A stretch of DNA of 55,790 bases, from the NCBI GenBank assembly GCA_028715605.1, contig JAQURM010000012.1, positions 1 through 55,790 on the forward strand, read 5' to 3'. A program made the position numbers and the translations under genes. Positions 5,006 through 47,015 of the stretch are shown piece after piece. The notes beneath the pieces are model-generated. The model had not been told where the DNA came from and searched no databases. It worked only from the letters and a program-made list of their open reading frames with translations. Every line of letters begins with the position of its first letter. Position 1 is the stretch's first letter. This DNA comes from Desulfovibrionales bacterium. Lineage in GTDB: Bacteria > Desulfobacterota > QYQD01.

Positions 5006-5089
5006 TTAAAAAGAGGTGGAAAAACATTTACCTGCAAAAGGAAATGATTTTCCACTGAGTTGGTATTTTGGTTCTCTTTTTCTATTGTC

Positions 5090-5118
5090 TTGACGCTCCT
5101 TCGCTATCCCGGTAAAAA
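5090..5118 (+). promoter_or_regulatory. Possible promoter of cytochrome copy 1
   Basis: TTGACG at 5090 is followed after 17 bases by TAAAAA at 5113. This would give a 5' leader of about 300 bases. The -10 box is weak, so this is a candidate only. The same sequence is present before copy 2. Confidence 0.35.
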
Positions 5119-5273
5119 TATAACCATCGGATATAACGGATATTTTTCTTTTTTAAGATTATTCCGCAGGTTACGGCACAGGTTTTGCTTTTGTCTAGCC
5201 AGACAGGATAGAAAAGAATGGCCTCGGCTCATAAATTAAAGAGTTAGCCCGAACATGCCGATAAACACAATAA

Positions 5274-5301
5274 GCCAGAGTGCGGAAATTTGGTCTCTGG
5301 C
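5274..5301 (+). promoter_or_regulatory. Hairpin in the cytochrome 5' leader
   Basis: GCCAGAG at 5274-5280 and CTCTGGC at 5295-5301 form a perfect 7-bp stem with a 14-base loop inside the long leader. No T-run follows, so it is not a simple terminator. The identical hairpin sits at 19102-19129. Confidence 0.4.
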
Positions 5302-5427
5302 CAGTGTATTTTGCCCAATTTTACTAGACAATGAAACTTACATGTGCTACGAGAACAAAAGAAAAAATTCTGCCATTAAAAGTTGGGTATGGAAATTTAG
5401 TTCCAGCTCCGCTTGGAGGTATGAAAA

Positions 5428-6570
5428 ATGGTAGGTAATCCAGCACCGCAGGCTACTTTAAGAATACCCCTTCAGGGGATAAATATATCGTCACTGTCAG
5501 CTACGCTGGCGTTGGTTGTTTTCTTGATATTGTCTATTCCGGTGACTGCTATTGCCGCAGTCACCGGCCCCTGTGTCAACTGCCACACTATGCACAACAG
5601 TCAGGGTGGGGCAGCCATGGCTACATATGGGGGTGAAACAGGCCCTAATTCTTTGCTTACTCGCGGAAGCTGTATAGGTTGCCATGCCCAAGGCACCGCT
5701 AGCAAGATTGTAACTATAGGTGGTAGCGATATTCCCCAGATTTATCACACGGATGGGTCCGGGGATTTGGCTGGTGGAAATTTTAAGTATCTTGATACAG
5801 ATGATAACAGGGGGCATAATGTCAGTGATTTCGGCAACCCCGATGGCACCTTGAATAGTGCGCCAGGTCATCATTCTACTACTGAGCCCACAACAAATAC
5901 ACTTACCTGTGCCGGACATAACGGCTGCCATGGTTATCGCAGATTTAACTACGGGAGTGGTTTGTCCACGTTAAAAGGTGCTCATCATGGGAATGTGGAT
6001 GGCAAGTGCGACTCTGCCACTACTGTAGCAAACTCATACCGGTTCCTATACAATGTTAAGGGCTTTGAAAACATGGGAGCAAATAAGTATCAGAACCTGA
6101 ATGCCACTGATCATAATGAATATTTTGGCACAACCAGCCCGGGGGAGACCGGGTGCCTTGACTGTCATGACATGGCCGATGACATGAAAATAAAGTCTCC
6201 TAATAACACAATAAGCGGTTTTTGCTCTACCTGCCATTACAATTTTCATAAGTTAAGCGGGATAGGGGGTAGCACCACGGGGCCCTTCACGAGACATCCA
6301 ACTGATGTTGTTTTACCTGACGATGTTGCTAAAGAATACAAGGACTATACAACTTACAGTGTAGAAGCCCCAGTTGGCAGGACAACAGTCCCTGATGCAC
6401 CAAGTGGTACCGTCACGCCGGGAACAGATGTTGTCACCTGTCTTTCCTGCCACGCCGCCCATGCCACGAATTACCCTGACATGCTAAGGTGGGACTACAC
6501 AACTATGATTGCAGGCGGGGGATCTAATACTACCGGATGCTTCACCTGCCACACGCAGAAGGACGACTGA
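5428..6570 (+). CDS. OmcS-like secreted multiheme cytochrome c, copy 1
   Basis: A 380-residue exported cytochrome. After a signal peptide (hydrophobic stretch about residues 22-44, AIAA before VTGPC) it has six CxxCH heme sites at residues 49, 82, 243, 266, 338 and 371, plus one CX5CH site (CAGHNGCH, 161-168), so up to seven hemes. Shared signatures with Geobacter OmcS, a filament-forming cytochrome, are CxxCHTMHNSxGGA at the first heme, GHN, the YRRF after the third heme, a YR(F/I)L...G segment, RHP, CLSCHxAHA, and a last CxxCH within a few residues of the C-terminus. The start is fixed by GGAGG 8 bases before the ATG. It is convergent with the MetE-like gene. The nanowire role is inferred from these motifs. 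Confidence 0.9.
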   Translation: MVGNPAPQATLRIPLQGINISSLSATLALVVFLILSIPVTAIAAVTGPCVNCHTMHNSQGGAAMATYGGETGPNSLLTRGSCIGCHAQGTASKIVTIGGSDIPQIYHTDGSGDLAGGNFKYLDTDDNRGHNVSDFGNPDGTLNSAPGHHSTTEPTTNTLTCAGHNGCHGYRRFNYGSGLSTLKGAHHGNVDGKCDSATTVANSYRFLYNVKGFENMGANKYQNLNATDHNEYFGTTSPGETGCLDCHDMADDMKIKSPNNTISGFCSTCHYNFHKLSGIGGSTTGPFTRHPTDVVLPDDVAKEYKDYTTYSVEAPVGRTTVPDAPSGTVTPGTDVVTCLSCHAAHATNYPDMLRWDYTTMIAGGGSNTTGCFTCHTQKDD

Positions 6571-6596
6571 TCTACCTTATTTTCCTGGACAGGTCT

Positions 6597-7619
6597 TTAT
6601 CTTCTGTATTTTTCACGAAGCCTCTGGGATAATGCGCGGATCGTTGCAAAGGCCTTTTCCACTGTTTTTTCCACATCCGGGTTGACAAGACAGCAGGTAG
6701 CCGGGGAGAGCATACTCCTGGACAGAAGAAATTCGCGGTCGATACCGGCCTTAACGAGGGCAGTCCATAATTCAGCGAGGCGTGCCTCAAGCGAATCAAG
6801 GCCCTCTTTTTCAAACGGTTCGACATTAGTCGGCACCATCCCCCAGACAATGACCCCGCCGCGTTCCAGGAACTTACGGATAGACCGGGCATAAGACACA
6901 AAGACTTCTCCGTTGGAGTAGGTGTCCAGAGACAACACGTCCATATCCAGCCCTAATAAGAAGTCCCAATCCGGGTTGCCGCAAAGATGCACGCCACGGG
7001 GTCTTTCCATCATGGAGAAAAAGGTCTCCATATCTTTTTTTGCCGCCACATCTCCGTAGCCGGCCATACCGCTGAATATAAACTGTAGCCCCGGCTCGTC
7101 CACAAACATGAAGGCATTGGCATTTAATTTTTTGAGGCGGTTCAACTGGGCGTTTATCCGCCTGGCCAGTATCTCAAGCATAAGCGGGCGGATGGTGTCG
7201 TTAAACAGAATAGGGCGGTTGTCCTGATCCAGTACGTTTAACCCGAAACTGATAGGGCCTTCGAGTTGCCCCCGTATGGCCGGACGATCTGACAGATCCA
7301 TGGCCAGGAAACGGCTATAGACCTGTGAATAGGTGTCGCTGATATCGAAATATCCCGGCTCATTGAAATGGGCTATGGCCCCCTCAAACTCACTTACAAA
7401 TTTTTCCATAGAAAAACGGAGGGTGCGCCTTTCCAGATCAAGCACGATACCCGGGAAGTGCTCCGAGGCCTGGACGTACATGTCTTCATAGTAGCTCAGG
7501 CGGGGAAGTTGAGGCCAGAAGGGCACGTCTAAAGACAGGGCCATCTGAAGGGCCCGGTCCACATCCTTATGCGGCATGACCGCCATAGCAGTAGTGAGCA
7601 GGTTACCGGGGATAGGCAC
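6597..7619 (-). CDS. MetE-like (cobalamin-independent methionine synthase / UroD superfamily) protein
   Basis: A 340-residue TIM-barrel protein of the superfamily uniting uroporphyrinogen decarboxylase and the MetE catalytic domain. It lacks the N-terminal half of full MetE (about 750 residues). The zinc-site pattern of MetE is recognisable: His211 and Cys213 in HLCGNPDW, an acidic residue in DVLSLDT, and Cys309/Cys310 in LSPATCCLVNPD. This suggests a zinc-dependent thiol methyltransferase. Whether it makes methionine or serves a corrinoid-linked methyl transfer is unknown. Its start overlaps the peroxiredoxin gene by 17 bases, so they are co-transcribed. A decayed copy of its 3' end follows the second cytochrome. 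Confidence 0.8.
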   Translation of the reverse strand: MPIPGNLLTTAMAVMPHKDVDRALQMALSLDVPFWPQLPRLSYYEDMYVQASEHFPGIVLDLERRTLRFSMEKFVSEFEGAIAHFNEPGYFDISDTYSQVYSRFLAMDLSDRPAIRGQLEGPISFGLNVLDQDNRPILFNDTIRPLMLEILARRINAQLNRLKKLNANAFMFVDEPGLQFIFSGMAGYGDVAAKKDMETFFSMMERPRGVHLCGNPDWDFLLGLDMDVLSLDTYSNGEVFVSYARSIRKFLERGGVIVWGMVPTNVEPFEKEGLDSLEARLAELWTALVKAGIDREFLLSRSMLSPATCCLVNPDVEKTVEKAFATIRALSQRLREKYRR

Positions 7620-17608: not shown

Positions 17609-17660
17609 ATCTTACTCCGCTTACTCACTATGGGCTTATCTTCCCCAGCCATTCGAGGAT

Positions 17661-17822
17661 GTAACACTTTAGGTTCTTGGAAAATTGCCTTGGGCAAGGC
17701 GCTATAAGGTCCAAAATCCCCCTCAATCCCCCTTTTCCAAAGGGGGAAGCGTTTTTCCTCCCTTTGAAAAAGGGAGGTCGGGAGGGATTTTAAAATACTT
17801 TTTCAAACAGCTAACCCGTTAC
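17661..17822 (+). mobile_element. MITE-like element, copy 1 (162 bp)
   Basis: The left end GTAACACTTTAGG and right end CTAACCCGTTAC are imperfect terminal inverted repeats of about 25 bases. Inside are two hairpins: CCCCCTTTTCCAAAGGGGG and CCTCCCTTTGAAAAAGGGAGG. It is flanked by TCGAGGAT (17653-17660) and TCGATGAT (17823-17830), an 8-bp target duplication with one mismatch. It has no coding capacity. The full-length counterparts are at 36570 and 46249. Confidence 0.85.
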
Positions 17823-18832: not shown

Positions 18833-20430
18833 TTAAAAAGAGGTAGGGAGAACATTTCTCTACAAATGGAAACGATTTTCCACTGAGTTGGTATTTTGGT
18901 TCTCTTTTTCTATTGTCTTGACGCTCCTTCGCTATCCCGGTAAAAATATAACCATCGGATATAACGGATATTTTTCTTTTTTAAGATTATTCCGCAGGTT
19001 ACGGCACAGGTTTTGCTTTTGTCTAGCCAGACAGGATAGAAAAGAATGGCCTCGGCTCATAAATTAAAGAGTTAGCCCGAACATGCCGATAAACACAATA
19101 AGCCAGAGTGCGGAAATTTGGTCTCTGGCCAGTGTATTTTGCCCAATTTTACTAGACAATGAAACTTACATGTGCTACGAGAACAAAAGAAAAAATTCTG
19201 CCATTAAAAGTTGGGTATGGAAATTTAGTTCCAGCTCCGCTTGGAGGTATGAAAAATGGTAGGTAATCCAGCACCGCAGGCTACTTTAAGAATACCCCTT
19301 CAGGGGATAAATATATCGTCACTGTCAGCTACGCTGGCGTTGGTTGTTTTCTTGATATTGTCTATTCCGGTGACTGCTATTGCCGCAGTCACCGGCCCCT
19401 GTGTCAACTGCCACACTATGCACAACAGTCAGGGTGGGGCAGCCATGGCTACATATGGGGGTGAAACAGGCCCTAATTCTTTGCTTACTCGCGGAAGCTG
19501 TATAGGTTGCCATGCCCAAGGCACCGCTAGCAAGATTGTAACTATAGGTGGTAGCGATATTCCCCAGATTTATCACACGGATGGGTCCGGGGATTTGGCT
19601 GGTGGAAATTTTAAGTATCTTGATACAGATGATAACAGGGGGCATAATGTCAGTGATTTCGGCAACCCCGATGGCACCTTGAATAGTGCGCCAGGTCATC
19701 ATTCTACTACTGAGCCCACAACAAATACACTTACCTGTGCCGGACATAACGGCTGCCATGGTTATCGCAGATTTAACTACGGGAGTGGTTTGTCCACGTT
19801 AAAAGGTGCTCATCATGGGAATGTGGATGGCAAGTGCGACTCTGCCACTACTGTAGCAAACTCATACCGGTTCCTATACAATGTTAAGGGCTTTGAAAAC
19901 ATGGGAGCAAATAAGTATCAGAACCTGAATGCCACTGATCATAATGAATATTTTGGCACAACCAGCCCGGGGGAGACCGGGTGCCTTGACTGTCATGACA
20001 TGGCCGATGACATGAAAATAAAGTCTCCTAATAACACAATAAGCGGTTTTTGCTCTACCTGCCATTACAATTTTCATAAGTTAAGCGGGATAGGGGGTAG
20101 CACCACGGGGCCCTTCACGAGACATCCAACTGATGTTGTTTTACCTGACGATGTTGCTAAAGAATACAAGGACTATACAACTTACAGTGTAGAAGCCCCA
20201 GTTGGCAGGACAACAGTCCCTGATGCACCAAGTGGTACCGTCACGCCGGGAACAGATGTTGTCACCTGTCTTTCCTGCCACGCCGCCCATGCCACGAATT
20301 ACCCTGACATGCTAAGGTGGGACTACACAACTATGATTGCAGGCGGGGGATCTAATACTACCGGATGCTTCACCTGCCATACGCAGAAGGATGACTGATC
20401 TACCCTATTTTCTCTTCAGAATCCCCTTTA
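18833..20430 (+). repeat. Direct repeat, copy 2 (cytochrome locus)
   Basis: The partner of 5006-6601. Bases 18874-20379 are identical to 5046-6551. Upstream similarity fades at about 18833, and downstream it continues, diverged and frameshifted, to about 20602. Confidence 0.95.
19256..20398 (+). CDS. OmcS-like secreted multiheme cytochrome c, copy 2
   Basis: Its 380-residue product is identical in every residue to the cytochrome at 5428. The DNA is identical except for two silent changes in the last codons. It has the same signal peptide, six CxxCH sites plus one CX5CH, the same GGAGG ribosome site and the same long leader, so both copies should be expressed alike from matching promoters. 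Here the downstream MetE-like gene is only a remnant, and the next intact gene is a histidine kinase on the same strand 532 bases away. Two identical genes could raise the dose of an abundant extracellular protein. An assembly artefact in the identical core cannot be excluded. Confidence 0.9.
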   Translation: MVGNPAPQATLRIPLQGINISSLSATLALVVFLILSIPVTAIAAVTGPCVNCHTMHNSQGGAAMATYGGETGPNSLLTRGSCIGCHAQGTASKIVTIGGSDIPQIYHTDGSGDLAGGNFKYLDTDDNRGHNVSDFGNPDGTLNSAPGHHSTTEPTTNTLTCAGHNGCHGYRRFNYGSGLSTLKGAHHGNVDGKCDSATTVANSYRFLYNVKGFENMGANKYQNLNATDHNEYFGTTSPGETGCLDCHDMADDMKIKSPNNTISGFCSTCHYNFHKLSGIGGSTTGPFTRHPTDVVLPDDVAKEYKDYTTYSVEAPVGRTTVPDAPSGTVTPGTDVVTCLSCHAAHATNYPDMLRWDYTTMIAGGGSNTTGCFTCHTQKDD

Positions 20431-20450
20431 TTGCCCCAGCCATTTCTCTA

Positions 20451-20602
20451 ACTTCTGTATTTTCCTCTCAGCCGCCGGCATAGCTCACGGGTCATGCGAA
20501 ACGCCTTTCCACTGTCTTTTCCACATCCGGGTTGATAAGACAGCAGGTGGCCGGGGAGAGCATACCTCGGGACAGAAGAAGCTTACGGTCGATGCCGCCT
20601 TT
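20451..20602 (-). pseudogene. Remnant of the MetE-like gene 3' end
   Basis: It aligns with 6600-6750, the C-terminal coding part of the MetE-like gene. It still encodes MLSPATCCLINPDVEKTVE, then a one-base deletion in the AAAGG run breaks the frame. No upstream part is present. Identity is clearly lower than in the adjacent cytochrome repeat, so this piece has diverged for longer. Confidence 0.85.
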
Positions 20603-23801: not shown

Positions 23802-24204
23802 GCTAAAGTGCTCCACTATCCTTCGTGGCCGCGGGCTTAGGCTTGCATATAACCTGACAGGTGCTGCCTGAAAACAGGCAGATTCACTTGCTATGCGCTT
23901 TTTTATATTCTTCCTTCTCTTAACATCTTTAGTCAATTACGTAGAAAACTCTTTTTAAATCCCCCCAGCCCCCCTTTTTCAAAGGGGGGGTAAAGATGTT
24001 TCCCCCTTTGCGAAGGGGATAGGGGGATTTTCATCGTTCGAGGGTGCTTATATGAGCATGGAAATTTGTATGGAAATTGTGGCCGGATTTTTGTCGCAAG
24101 AATGTCCTTCCGGCAAAGGAAGGCAGCCATAGTTGGCTTTAATTGACTTTGTTTGTGGATGGTGGTAATAAAAAAGCGCTTTTCTGAGCGTAGGGAGCTA
24201 ACTG
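23802..24204. other. Spacer between the kinase and glyQ
   Basis: No gene seen. CTGCCTG-AAAA-CAGGCAG near 23862-23882 is a compact hairpin, possibly the kinase terminator although its T-run is poor. A CCCCCTTT palindromic repeat occupies 23957-24032. The glyQ promoter must lie in the last 150 bases. Confidence 0.5.
23957..24032. repeat. CCCCCTTTG palindromic repeat
   Basis: AAATCCCCCC...CCCTTTTTCAAAGGGGGG and CCCCCTTTGCGAAGGGGATAGGGGGATTTT form nested palindromes. It resembles the interior of the 162-bp element but lacks its GTAAC ends. Confidence 0.65.
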
Positions 24205-32739: not shown

Positions 32740-32809
32740 GGCATCACTTCCTTTCTATTCGTATCCGGGGCAATTCCTGTCCAACTTGCTGATTCATGTG
32801 CTGTTGCCT

Positions 32810-32905
32810 TCAAATCCCCCTTGATCCCCCTTTTCCAAAGGGGGAAAATACCGCTAATCCCCCTCTTTGGAAAAGAGGGGGCAGGGGAGATTTTAAAAAT
32901 CTTAT
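32810..32905. repeat. CCCCCTTTG palindromic repeat
   Basis: CCCCCTTTTCCAAAGGGGG followed by CCCCCTCTTTGGAAAAGAGGGGG. It is similar to the interior of the 162-bp element but without its terminal GTAAC repeats. It lies between the macro-domain gene and mltA. Confidence 0.65.
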
Positions 32906-34179
32906 TTTGGACAGATGTGATCCGGGTTAATTCCTGCGCGCTTTTTGACCAGGAAAAACAGCCTTCCCGTGTGTTTAAGGTTGCCGGCGGCCGCCTCTGC
33001 GTAAGGACCTGACCCCCAGAAGATATCCACACGCCCCGGTCCCTTTATGGCCCCTCCGGTATCCTGGTTCAGGACAAGGCGTGTAAATGACGTCCATCCC
33101 TCAATACAGCCATTATTATTCAACGCTGGTTTTTCGGCTGTTATCAGGGCAATAGCCCCACGTGGAAGCATTTGGGAATCCGTGGCAATAGAACGCCCCG
33201 GAGTCAGCATCTCGCCTAAACAACCGCGTGGTCCATCCTCCGCCAACTGGAAAAATACATAACTCTCATTATAGCATAAAATTCTCTCCTGTTCCTCCGG
33301 ATACTTCTTCAGATAATCCTTCAGGCTGAACAGGGACACCTCTGAAGGCTCCATCTTGCCTTCTTCAATAAACAAGTTGCCGATGCTGCGGTACGGGCGC
33401 CCGTTTTTGGCCTGATACTGGGCAAACAGCGATTTGCCGTCTTCCAGTTCAATACGCCCGGAGCCCTGGATCTGCAAAAAGAAGGCCTCAATAGGGTCTG
33501 CGAGATAGAGTAGTTCAAGGCCCTTCCCCTGCAAGGCCCCCTGATAATCTATTTCACGCCGTGTATAATAGGGCACCAGCCTCCCTTTGCACGGCCTTCC
33601 CACCAGTGTCTTTGCCGGGTAATCAAGGCCAAAATCCTGAAGGTTTACGTAAAGCATATCGTCGGGCCGGCGATAAAGCGGATAAACGTATCCACCGGCA
33701 CGCAGCCGGCTTCCCTTGAGAACCGGCAGATAGTAGCCGGTAAAAAGTACATCGCCCTGGCCGGTGCGGCCGCTGGATTGGTAAAAAGAAAATTTTTCTT
33801 TTACCAGGCGGGTGAAATCTTCCGGCGCAGCGCCGGTATTTATTATCTCCACGAGTGTCTTGACCGAATCGATGACCTCATCACGGCTGTAAATATCATC
33901 CCCGAACTGGAAACTTTCCTTGACCGGCAACCGTTCTAAATAGCCAAGGCTTTTTAGAGCGGCCTGACGCAGGGAGTCCAGATCCATATCATCCTGGAAT
34001 GGAGGTATATCCCCTTCCGGCGTAAGGACGAGCGGCGGAGGTGGTGGGGGAGGTACAGGTGCCGGAGGAGGCGCAGGCGGCGGTACGGCCACCTCTTTTA
34101 CCGCCGGCATACACCCGCCAAGTATAAGGATAATAACCGATAGCAGATAAATGAGGTTACGGATTTTTCCGGTCTTCAT
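32902..34179 (-). CDS. mltA: Membrane-bound lytic murein transglycosylase A
   Basis: A 425-residue lipoprotein that cleaves the peptidoglycan glycan strand to 1,6-anhydro-muropeptides. The signal peptide ends in the lipobox LGGC (Cys near residue 23). A proline-rich linker (PPPAPPPAPVPPPPPPP) spans the space to the catalytic part. The MltA barrel domain begins near FTGYYLPVLKGS, and the C-terminal 3D domain holds the family's Asp residues (SIATDSQMLPRGAIALI, NQDTGGAIKGPGRVDIFWG). The stop lies just inside a flanking palindromic repeat, so the extreme C-terminus may be variable. Confidence 0.95.
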   Translation of the reverse strand: MKTGKIRNLIYLLSVIILILGGCMPAVKEVAVPPPAPPPAPVPPPPPPPLVLTPEGDIPPFQDDMDLDSLRQAALKSLGYLERLPVKESFQFGDDIYSRDEVIDSVKTLVEIINTGAAPEDFTRLVKEKFSFYQSSGRTGQGDVLFTGYYLPVLKGSRLRAGGYVYPLYRRPDDMLYVNLQDFGLDYPAKTLVGRPCKGRLVPYYTRREIDYQGALQGKGLELLYLADPIEAFFLQIQGSGRIELEDGKSLFAQYQAKNGRPYRSIGNLFIEEGKMEPSEVSLFSLKDYLKKYPEEQERILCYNESYVFFQLAEDGPRGCLGEMLTPGRSIATDSQMLPRGAIALITAEKPALNNNGCIEGWTSFTRLVLNQDTGGAIKGPGRVDIFWGSGPYAEAAAGNLKHTGRLFFLVKKRAGINPDHICPK

Positions 34180-36563: not shown

Positions 36564-36569
36564 TGGTTT

Positions 36570-36731
36570 GTAACACTTTAGGTTTTTGAAAAATATGCCT
36601 AAGCAAGGCGCTATAAAGGCCGAAATCCCCCTCAATCCCCCTTTTCCAAAGGGGGAAGCGTTTCTCCTCCCTTTGAAAAATGGAGGTTGGGAGGGATTTA
36701 AGAATACTTTTTCAAACAGCTAAACTGATAC
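36570..36731 (+). mobile_element. MITE-like element, copy 2 (162 bp), inside an operon
   Basis: Ends are GTAACACTTTAGG and CTAAACTGATAC, with about 20 of 25 terminal bases matching as inverted repeats. It is flanked by a perfect 8-bp duplication GATGGTTT at 36562-36569 and 36732-36739. The interior has the same two palindromes as copies 1 and 3. It lies 6 bases past the mvhD stop and 16 bases before the next start codon. Confidence 0.9.
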
Positions 36732-46248: not shown

Positions 46249-46410
46249 GTAACACTTTAGTTGTTTGAAAAGAGCTAGTCGTCCAGAAAACAGCGCTTCA
46301 AAAATCCCCCTCAATCCTTCTTTCCCAAAGGGGGAAGCGTTTTTCCTCCCTTTGGAAAAGGGAGGTTGGGAGGGATTTAAGAATACTTTTTCAAGCAGCT
46401 AAACGGATAC
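46249..46410 (+). mobile_element. MITE-like element, copy 3 (162 bp)
   Basis: Ends are GTAACACTTTAG and CTAAACGGATAC, with the same length and internal palindromes as copies 1 and 2. Flanks AAACTCGT and TACTTTTT do not match, so no target duplication survives. Its last base is also the final base of the stop codon of the neighbouring DUF4398 gene. Confidence 0.85.
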
Positions 46411-47015
46411 TACTTTTTTAATCTCTTTTTCTTTTTGGCCCTGATGTCCGGGATGGAGGTCTTTTTTATGGCCGGTTCAATTTCTTTCTCCAATCCCAAA
46501 AGGGCAGAGCTCAACCTTTGGCTCTCTTCCAGGACCGCCGGATATTCACCCCTTTTAATCTGAAAGTCAGACTCGGCCAGGGCCAGCTCTATATCCTCCA
46601 GCCGGTAATTGAACTTGTCTCTGTCCTTGTCCCGGAGATTAGATGCCCCGGCCAGCATCTTTCTTGCTTTGTCTAGATTGACTTTTAATTCAGCCAATGC
46701 TTTTTCAGCCTGAGCCTTCGCTCTGGACTTATTCTCTTTGGCTGTCTTTAATGCTGCTTCTGCCCGGGCCCTGGCCAGGAGTGCGGCCTCTTTCGCCTCC
46801 TTATGCCTTCCCTCTCTTATCTCTGTTTGGATACGCGCAAGGGCCTTTCGCGCTGAGCCAAGCTCTTCCTTGGCATAAATCTCAGCCCGGGCATTGAGGG
46901 CCGCCTTATAGGCCCTATCCGCCGCCTCTATCTCTTTTTGGGGCGGCTCGGAGCAGGAAGCCAGGACTACCAGAGCGACAAAGGTCAACAAAAAATAACG
47001 GGTCAGAAAGTACAT
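46410..47015 (-). CDS. DUF4398-like coiled-coil lipoprotein
   Basis: A 201-residue exported lipoprotein. The signal peptide ends with the lipobox VLASC (Cys near 21). The rest is a charged alanine-rich coiled coil (KEIEAADRAYKAALNARAEIYAKEELGSARKAL...), as in DUF4398 proteins, which are thought to be envelope or peptidoglycan-associated spacers. The tail is strongly basic (RAKKKKRLKK). The stop codon is completed by the last base of a 162-bp mobile element, so the present C-terminus may differ from the ancestral one. Confidence 0.82.
   Translation of the reverse strand: MYFLTRYFLLTFVALVVLASCSEPPQKEIEAADRAYKAALNARAEIYAKEELGSARKALARIQTEIREGRHKEAKEAALLARARAEAALKTAKENKSRAKAQAEKALAELKVNLDKARKMLAGASNLRDKDRDKFNYRLEDIELALAESDFQIKRGEYPAVLEESQRLSSALLGLEKEIEPAIKKTSIPDIRAKKKKRLKK

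Follow-up and report, generated by a model that had tools for sequence, protein, structure and literature searches.

The OmcS protein of Geobacter sulfurreducens (GSU2504, PDB 6EF8, 6NEF) contains six CX2CH heme sites, and one of its twelve axial histidines is supplied by the neighbouring molecule, where it binds the fifth heme (PMC6584659). Geobacter genomes encode several homologues of OmcS, among them the hexaheme GSU2501-like proteins, OmcT and OmcJ, but OmcS alone is known to form a wire, unlike its close homologues OmcT and OmcJ (PMC12977616). GSU2501 is encoded upstream of a gene block, GSU2500–GSU2493, that has been linked to maturation and secretion of OmcS (PMC12977616). Further extracellular heme wires are formed by OmcE, in which a heme is ligated by a histidine of the neighbour, and by OmcZ, in which 14 residues separate the cysteines of one heme site (PMC9473688). 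In syntrophic sulfate reducers of the Desulfobacterota, OmcX, OmcS-like and Apc2a cytochromes were proposed to be extracellular filament proteins; their genes occur pairwise, close to porin and cytochrome conduits (PMC10553843).

We analysed a window of 55,790 nt, contig JAQURM010000012.1 of the assembly GCA_028715605.1 (Desulfovibrionales bacterium), which harbours two copies of a gene for an OmcS-related cytochrome with seven predicted heme sites (Table 1). All positions refer to this window unless another contig is named.

A seven-heme relative of OmcS

The 380-residue reading frame at 5428–6570 that a preliminary description of the sequence had reported was confirmed by ORF calling and translation. 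It is preceded by a GGAGG ribosome-binding site (5415–5419, ATG 8 nt further on) and encodes seven CXnCH motifs. All motif cysteines and histidines are invariant across 20 sequences of the group of relatives termed group I below, which share 47–68% identity with the copy A protein, and the seven motifs are thus more than chance occurrences. Pfam searches returned general multiheme domains only. Residues 20–41 form a hydrophobic N-terminal helix in the AF2 model and resemble a Sec signal peptide.

OmcS (6EF8) was the best phmmer match in the PDB (E = 2e-6, residues 47–367), and a family profile aligned to it over most of its length (E = 5.5e-32, profile positions 38–337 on OmcS 8–348); the same profile matched OmcE with E = 0.037. 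The AF2 model, calculated with a 106-row alignment, had a pLDDT of 79 and a pTM of 0.78, with the region of heme 1 at about 50. Foldseek against the PDB retrieved OmcS as sole match (E = 5.9e-5), at a TM of 0.42 that is not calibrated because the control model of an OmcS orthologue (L128, pLDDT 41.6) failed; unlike OmcS, neither OmcE nor OmcZ gave a fold match. Homology to OmcS, as first proposed, is therefore borne out by both sequence searches, and the single fold match points the same way; alignments with OmcS likewise recovered the OmcS-like heme order and the CHTMHNS, RHP and CLSCHxAHA signatures. The YRRF that had been read as a further OmcS-like signature after heme 3 is carried by the copy A protein alone within the group I alignment. 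The preliminary description had also placed extra heme binding near the middle, at residues 243 and 266; the site at 243 is indeed additional to OmcS, whereas the one at 266 corresponds to OmcS heme 4 (C239–H243).

A signal peptide by itself targets a protein to the periplasm only, and neither a lipobox nor an anchor was seen in the copy A translation, as would suit a soluble shuttle that carries electrons in the periplasm and has no role outside the cell. We consider such a shuttle improbable, given the homology and fold match to OmcS and the outer-membrane and secretion genes with which relatives are associated.

Table 1. Positions of the cytochrome gene copies, their shared DNA and the predicted heme-binding features in the window.
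Feature	Position	Strand	Remarks
Upstream region common to both copies	5046–5427	+	~90–95% conserved in two genomes of the same genus
1,506 bp identical to 18874–20379	5046–6551	+	Imperfect similarity 5006–6752
Copy A, cytochrome gene with seven heme sites, CX5CH family, group I	5428–6570	+	380 aa
Probable signal peptide, residues 1–43	5428–5556	+	Helix 20–41 in model; cleavage point inferred from sequence
Heme site 1, CVNCH, residues 49–53	5572–5586	+	
His56, aligned to OmcS His16	5593–5595	+	Candidate ligand of the neighbour subunit's heme; alignment; 20/20 group I
Heme site 2, CIGCH, residues 82–86	5671–5685	+	
His107, candidate distal ligand for the additional heme	5746–5748	+	Invariant in group I
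Heme site 3, CAGHNGCH (CX5CH), residues 161–168	5908–5931	+	
Heme site 4, CLDCH, residues 243–247	6154–6168	+	Absent from OmcS and six-heme relatives
Heme site 5, CSTCH, residues 266–270	6223–6237	+	Corresponds to OmcS heme 4
Heme site 6, CLSCH, residues 338–342	6439–6453	+	Corresponds to OmcS heme 5
Heme site 7, CFTCH, residues 371–375	6538–6552	+	Corresponds to OmcS heme 6
Identical partner of 5046–6551	18874–20379	+	Imperfect similarity 18833–20601
Copy B, second gene	19256–20398	+	Identical 380-aa protein

A family with CX5CH at the third heme site

A contig scan identified 74 loci of related genes, to which searches of whole genomes added more, and an alignment was made of 136 sequences of full or nearly full length. 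Almost all of them share six heme sites. Three sequences are of the OmcS type and the others fall into three groups: group I (n = 22) with seven sites, the extra one at the position of residue 243; group II (n = 76) with six sites; and group III (n = 35) with seven sites, the extra one just after site 3. C161, C167 and H168 of the CX5CH motif are kept in 135, 133 and 135 of the 136 sequences, respectively. The third site, which had been called unusual, instead follows the rule of the family: its spacer is five residues long in all 22 sequences of group I and in 72 of the 76 of group II. Group III has spacers of 2, 3, 4 and 5 residues in 16, 4, 13 and 2 sequences. The placement of the two motifs in the site-3 region of group III differs between the first 106-row alignment and a local-pair alignment; we used the latter because the unaligned sequences fit it better, which remains a judgement. 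Judged by its sequences, the CX5CH family is thus a large and poorly described one of at least 133 members with CX5CH as its rule.

In a tree built by a quick method, with branches assessed by SH-aLRT support only, OmcS and the three OmcS-type proteins were split from groups I–III by long branches. Group I lay on one side of a branch with a support of 67 (95 for 19 of 20 members) and was nested among group II, while group III, including one sequence scored as group II, formed a branch with a support of 100. Since group I is nested in group II and group III branches separately, the seventh heme site was most likely gained twice independently, at different positions in the two groups. A search for OmcS within the class of genome G057 retrieved one relative only.

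With seven sites, one of them CX5CH, in place of six CX2CH sites, and a position outside OmcS in the tree, the copy A protein is, by sequence, a new variant with seven hemes that belongs to a sister family of OmcS. It resembles OmcS in its homology over most of its length, in the order of the six shared heme sites and in the secretion block that accompanies its relatives, and differs by the extra site at 243–247, its shorter length and the location of its gene apart from the block. It could also belong to the OmcX, OmcS-like or Apc2a groups, with which it was compared by description only, as it was with the GSU2501-like proteins, OmcT and OmcJ (PMC12977616); the latter differ from it in being hexaheme.

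Heme sites 3 and 4 and candidate axial ligands

Spacers of site 3 vary from 2 to 5 residues in the family and those of site 4 from 2 to 7 in group I (2, 3, 4, 6 and 7 residues in 7, 5, 6, 1 and 3 sequences), while both cysteines and the histidine are invariant, which argues that both are real heme sites. In phmmer, profile and MAFFT alignments alike, the CX5CH stretch aligned ungapped to CSSCHDPHG of OmcS, and its motif histidine therefore falls on OmcS His147, not on His144. The register of site 3 thus appears shifted relative to OmcS in the alignments; the heme roles of these residues are putative.

CX5CH might alternatively be a former heme site whose cysteine pair is structural, leaving a protein with six hemes. 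The heme-free model shows strands (160–163, 166–169) around the motif, unlike the usual helical heme turn, and a literature search, weak because most subscription papers lay outside it, found CX5CH neither as a named motif nor with shown heme attachment. H168 is nevertheless conserved together with the cysteine pair, group III homologues have CX2CH, CX3CH or CX4CH at the same position, and a c-type heme tolerates a much longer loop, such as the 14 residues of OmcZ (PMC9473688). We accordingly give little credence to the loss of this site and regard CX5CH as a putative heme site. As site 3 is CX5CH, counting CXXCH motifs alone miscounts the family: only six of the seven sites of the copy A protein are found, and in nearly all six-heme relatives site 3 goes unnoticed.

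Ten non-motif histidines are conserved in group I and eight each in groups II and III, which is enough for two histidines per heme and, in the copy A protein, for bis-His ligation at all seven sites. The additions of group I over group II are His107 and, in 18/20 sequences, His149. His107 is present in 22/22 group I, 20/76 group II and 0/35 group III sequences (the Fisher value for this association is only indicative, the sequences being related) and is probably the distal ligand of the seventh heme, as judged from this distribution. His56, His130, His290 and His345 aligned to the conserved OmcS residues His16, His110, His257 and His335 in a MAFFT alignment with nine OmcS-family proteins, whereas the positions of the conserved His186, His187 and His229 are occupied by other residues in OmcS. 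The OmcS axial histidine that bridges subunits is, we assume, His16, the equivalent of which (His56, in the CHTMH position) is present in 20/20 group I sequences. It is missing in 6/74 six-heme relatives, possibly members that do not polymerise.

Two identical copies and their upstream region

Copy B was absent from the preliminary description. Copies A and B lie within identical stretches of 1,506 bp, outside of which about 40 bp upstream and about 200 bp downstream are still similar with many mismatches; the similarity at 18833–20601 includes a degenerate piece resembling the end of the gene at 6597–7619. Because the flanks of the identical copies differ, this pattern suggests recent gene conversion, although an assembler may instead have merged a repeat. 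The neighbours of copy A on the opposite strand are a methionine-synthase/uroporphyrinogen-decarboxylase-like gene (so judged by eye; Pfam gave no hit), two genes of the AhpC/TSA family and one resembling hemW. Copy B is followed by a gene for a PAS histidine kinase with a receiver domain.

Both loci are present in a genome of the same genus (G001), with about the same upstream region and flanking DNA that is mostly 92–99% identical. The gene at position A there is of group III and the one at position B of group I, with 68% protein identity, a pattern consistent with repeated replacement or conversion of genes at both loci. At the counterpart of the copy A locus, on contig 20 of that genome (L121, 3890–5463), the upstream region and gene start are ~88% identical over 600 bp and are followed by the group III seven-heme cytochrome; this locus looks like the replacement of a cytochrome cassette between conserved flanks.

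Within the genus, the coding DNA is only 66–72% identical, compared with ~90–95% for the non-coding upstream region. A sigma-54-like site, CGGCACAGGTTTTGCT, is located at 5174–5189, and four loci retain its GGCAC and TTTTGCT elements; the number of sigma-54-like sites in the window is by itself not beyond chance. A riboswitch or structured leader RNA upstream of the gene was not supported, as there was no Rfam match of note and folding was no better than that of shuffled sequences (z = -0.78). An interspersed repeat of ~90–160 bp (75–93% identical) occurs between genes in both orientations at 17660–17822, 23945–24031, 32809–32906, 36569–36731 and 46298–46411.

Secretion genes and predicted function

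The genome encodes ten CX5CH family genes and, on contig 1 (G000, about 312–325.5 kb), a block of nine genes that adjoins neither copy A nor copy B and matches, in full, the gene block linked to OmcS secretion. Its products are a propeller lipoprotein, a 762-aa predicted barrel, three LpoB/TolB_N-like proteins, a PPIase, cytochromes with 26 and 16 hemes and an NHL protein. Elsewhere in the phylum, other genomes have homologues of the block in the same order beside OmcS homologues, with 22–36% identity among the non-heme proteins; a counterpart of one small lipoprotein was not found in the blocks compared. For the Geobacter block, roles of the individual GSU2500–GSU2493 proteins were reportedly described by Shen et al. 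2025. Like GSU2501, some genes of groups I, II and III are located upstream of such blocks, and group I genes are at or near a block in 7 of ~20 loci (L005, L006, L010, L011, L012, L018 and L028). A six-heme family gene adjoins the block of this genome on the opposite strand (L124 and L113, contig 1, ~312000–326200). The genome also contains a dsrA above the curated cut-off, and sulfite reduction or its reverse is therefore likely.

We lean, with modest confidence, towards copy A encoding an exported seven-heme c-type cytochrome that assembles into an OmcS-like heme filament outside the cell and uses the OmcS-type secretion block; export and electron transfer are likely, and filament formation is plausible. 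In such a polymer, heme would be attached at CX5CH, His56 would ligate a heme of the neighbouring subunit and the seventh heme would lengthen or branch the chain. The remote block on contig 1 would serve the protein, and electrons would pass along the filament between the cell and an acceptor or partner outside it.

With ten family genes in a single genome, a division of labour is likely, and the copy A protein might accordingly be a non-polymerising extracellular or cell-surface cytochrome similar to OmcT or OmcJ, either relaying electrons as a monomer or serving as the cap or adaptor of filaments built from another member. Copies A and B both stand alone, and the functions of the Geobacter OmcS homologues are not established (PMC12977616). 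The invariance in group I of the histidine that some six-heme relatives have lost, and the location of group I members at secretion blocks elsewhere, speak against it, and we regard a non-polymerising role as rather unlikely.

More tentatively than for the filament subunit itself, and as a possibility that we still view with some doubt, the family as a whole may be a widespread one of wire-forming proteins whose c-type heme attachment departs from the CX2CH rule. Site 3 would be shifted in register, with the residue opposite the conserved non-motif OmcS His147 now serving as the motif histidine of CX5CH, site 4 would tolerate spacers of 2 to 7 residues, and a seventh heme gained twice, at different places, would give seven-heme subunits with a chain unlike that of OmcS. 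If the copy A protein polymerises, OmcS-type wires would have a second lineage, with a different number of hemes, in uncultured Desulfobacterota and Nitrospirota, and the natural spacer-length variants of the CX5CH family would be material for testing how far heme attachment stretches.
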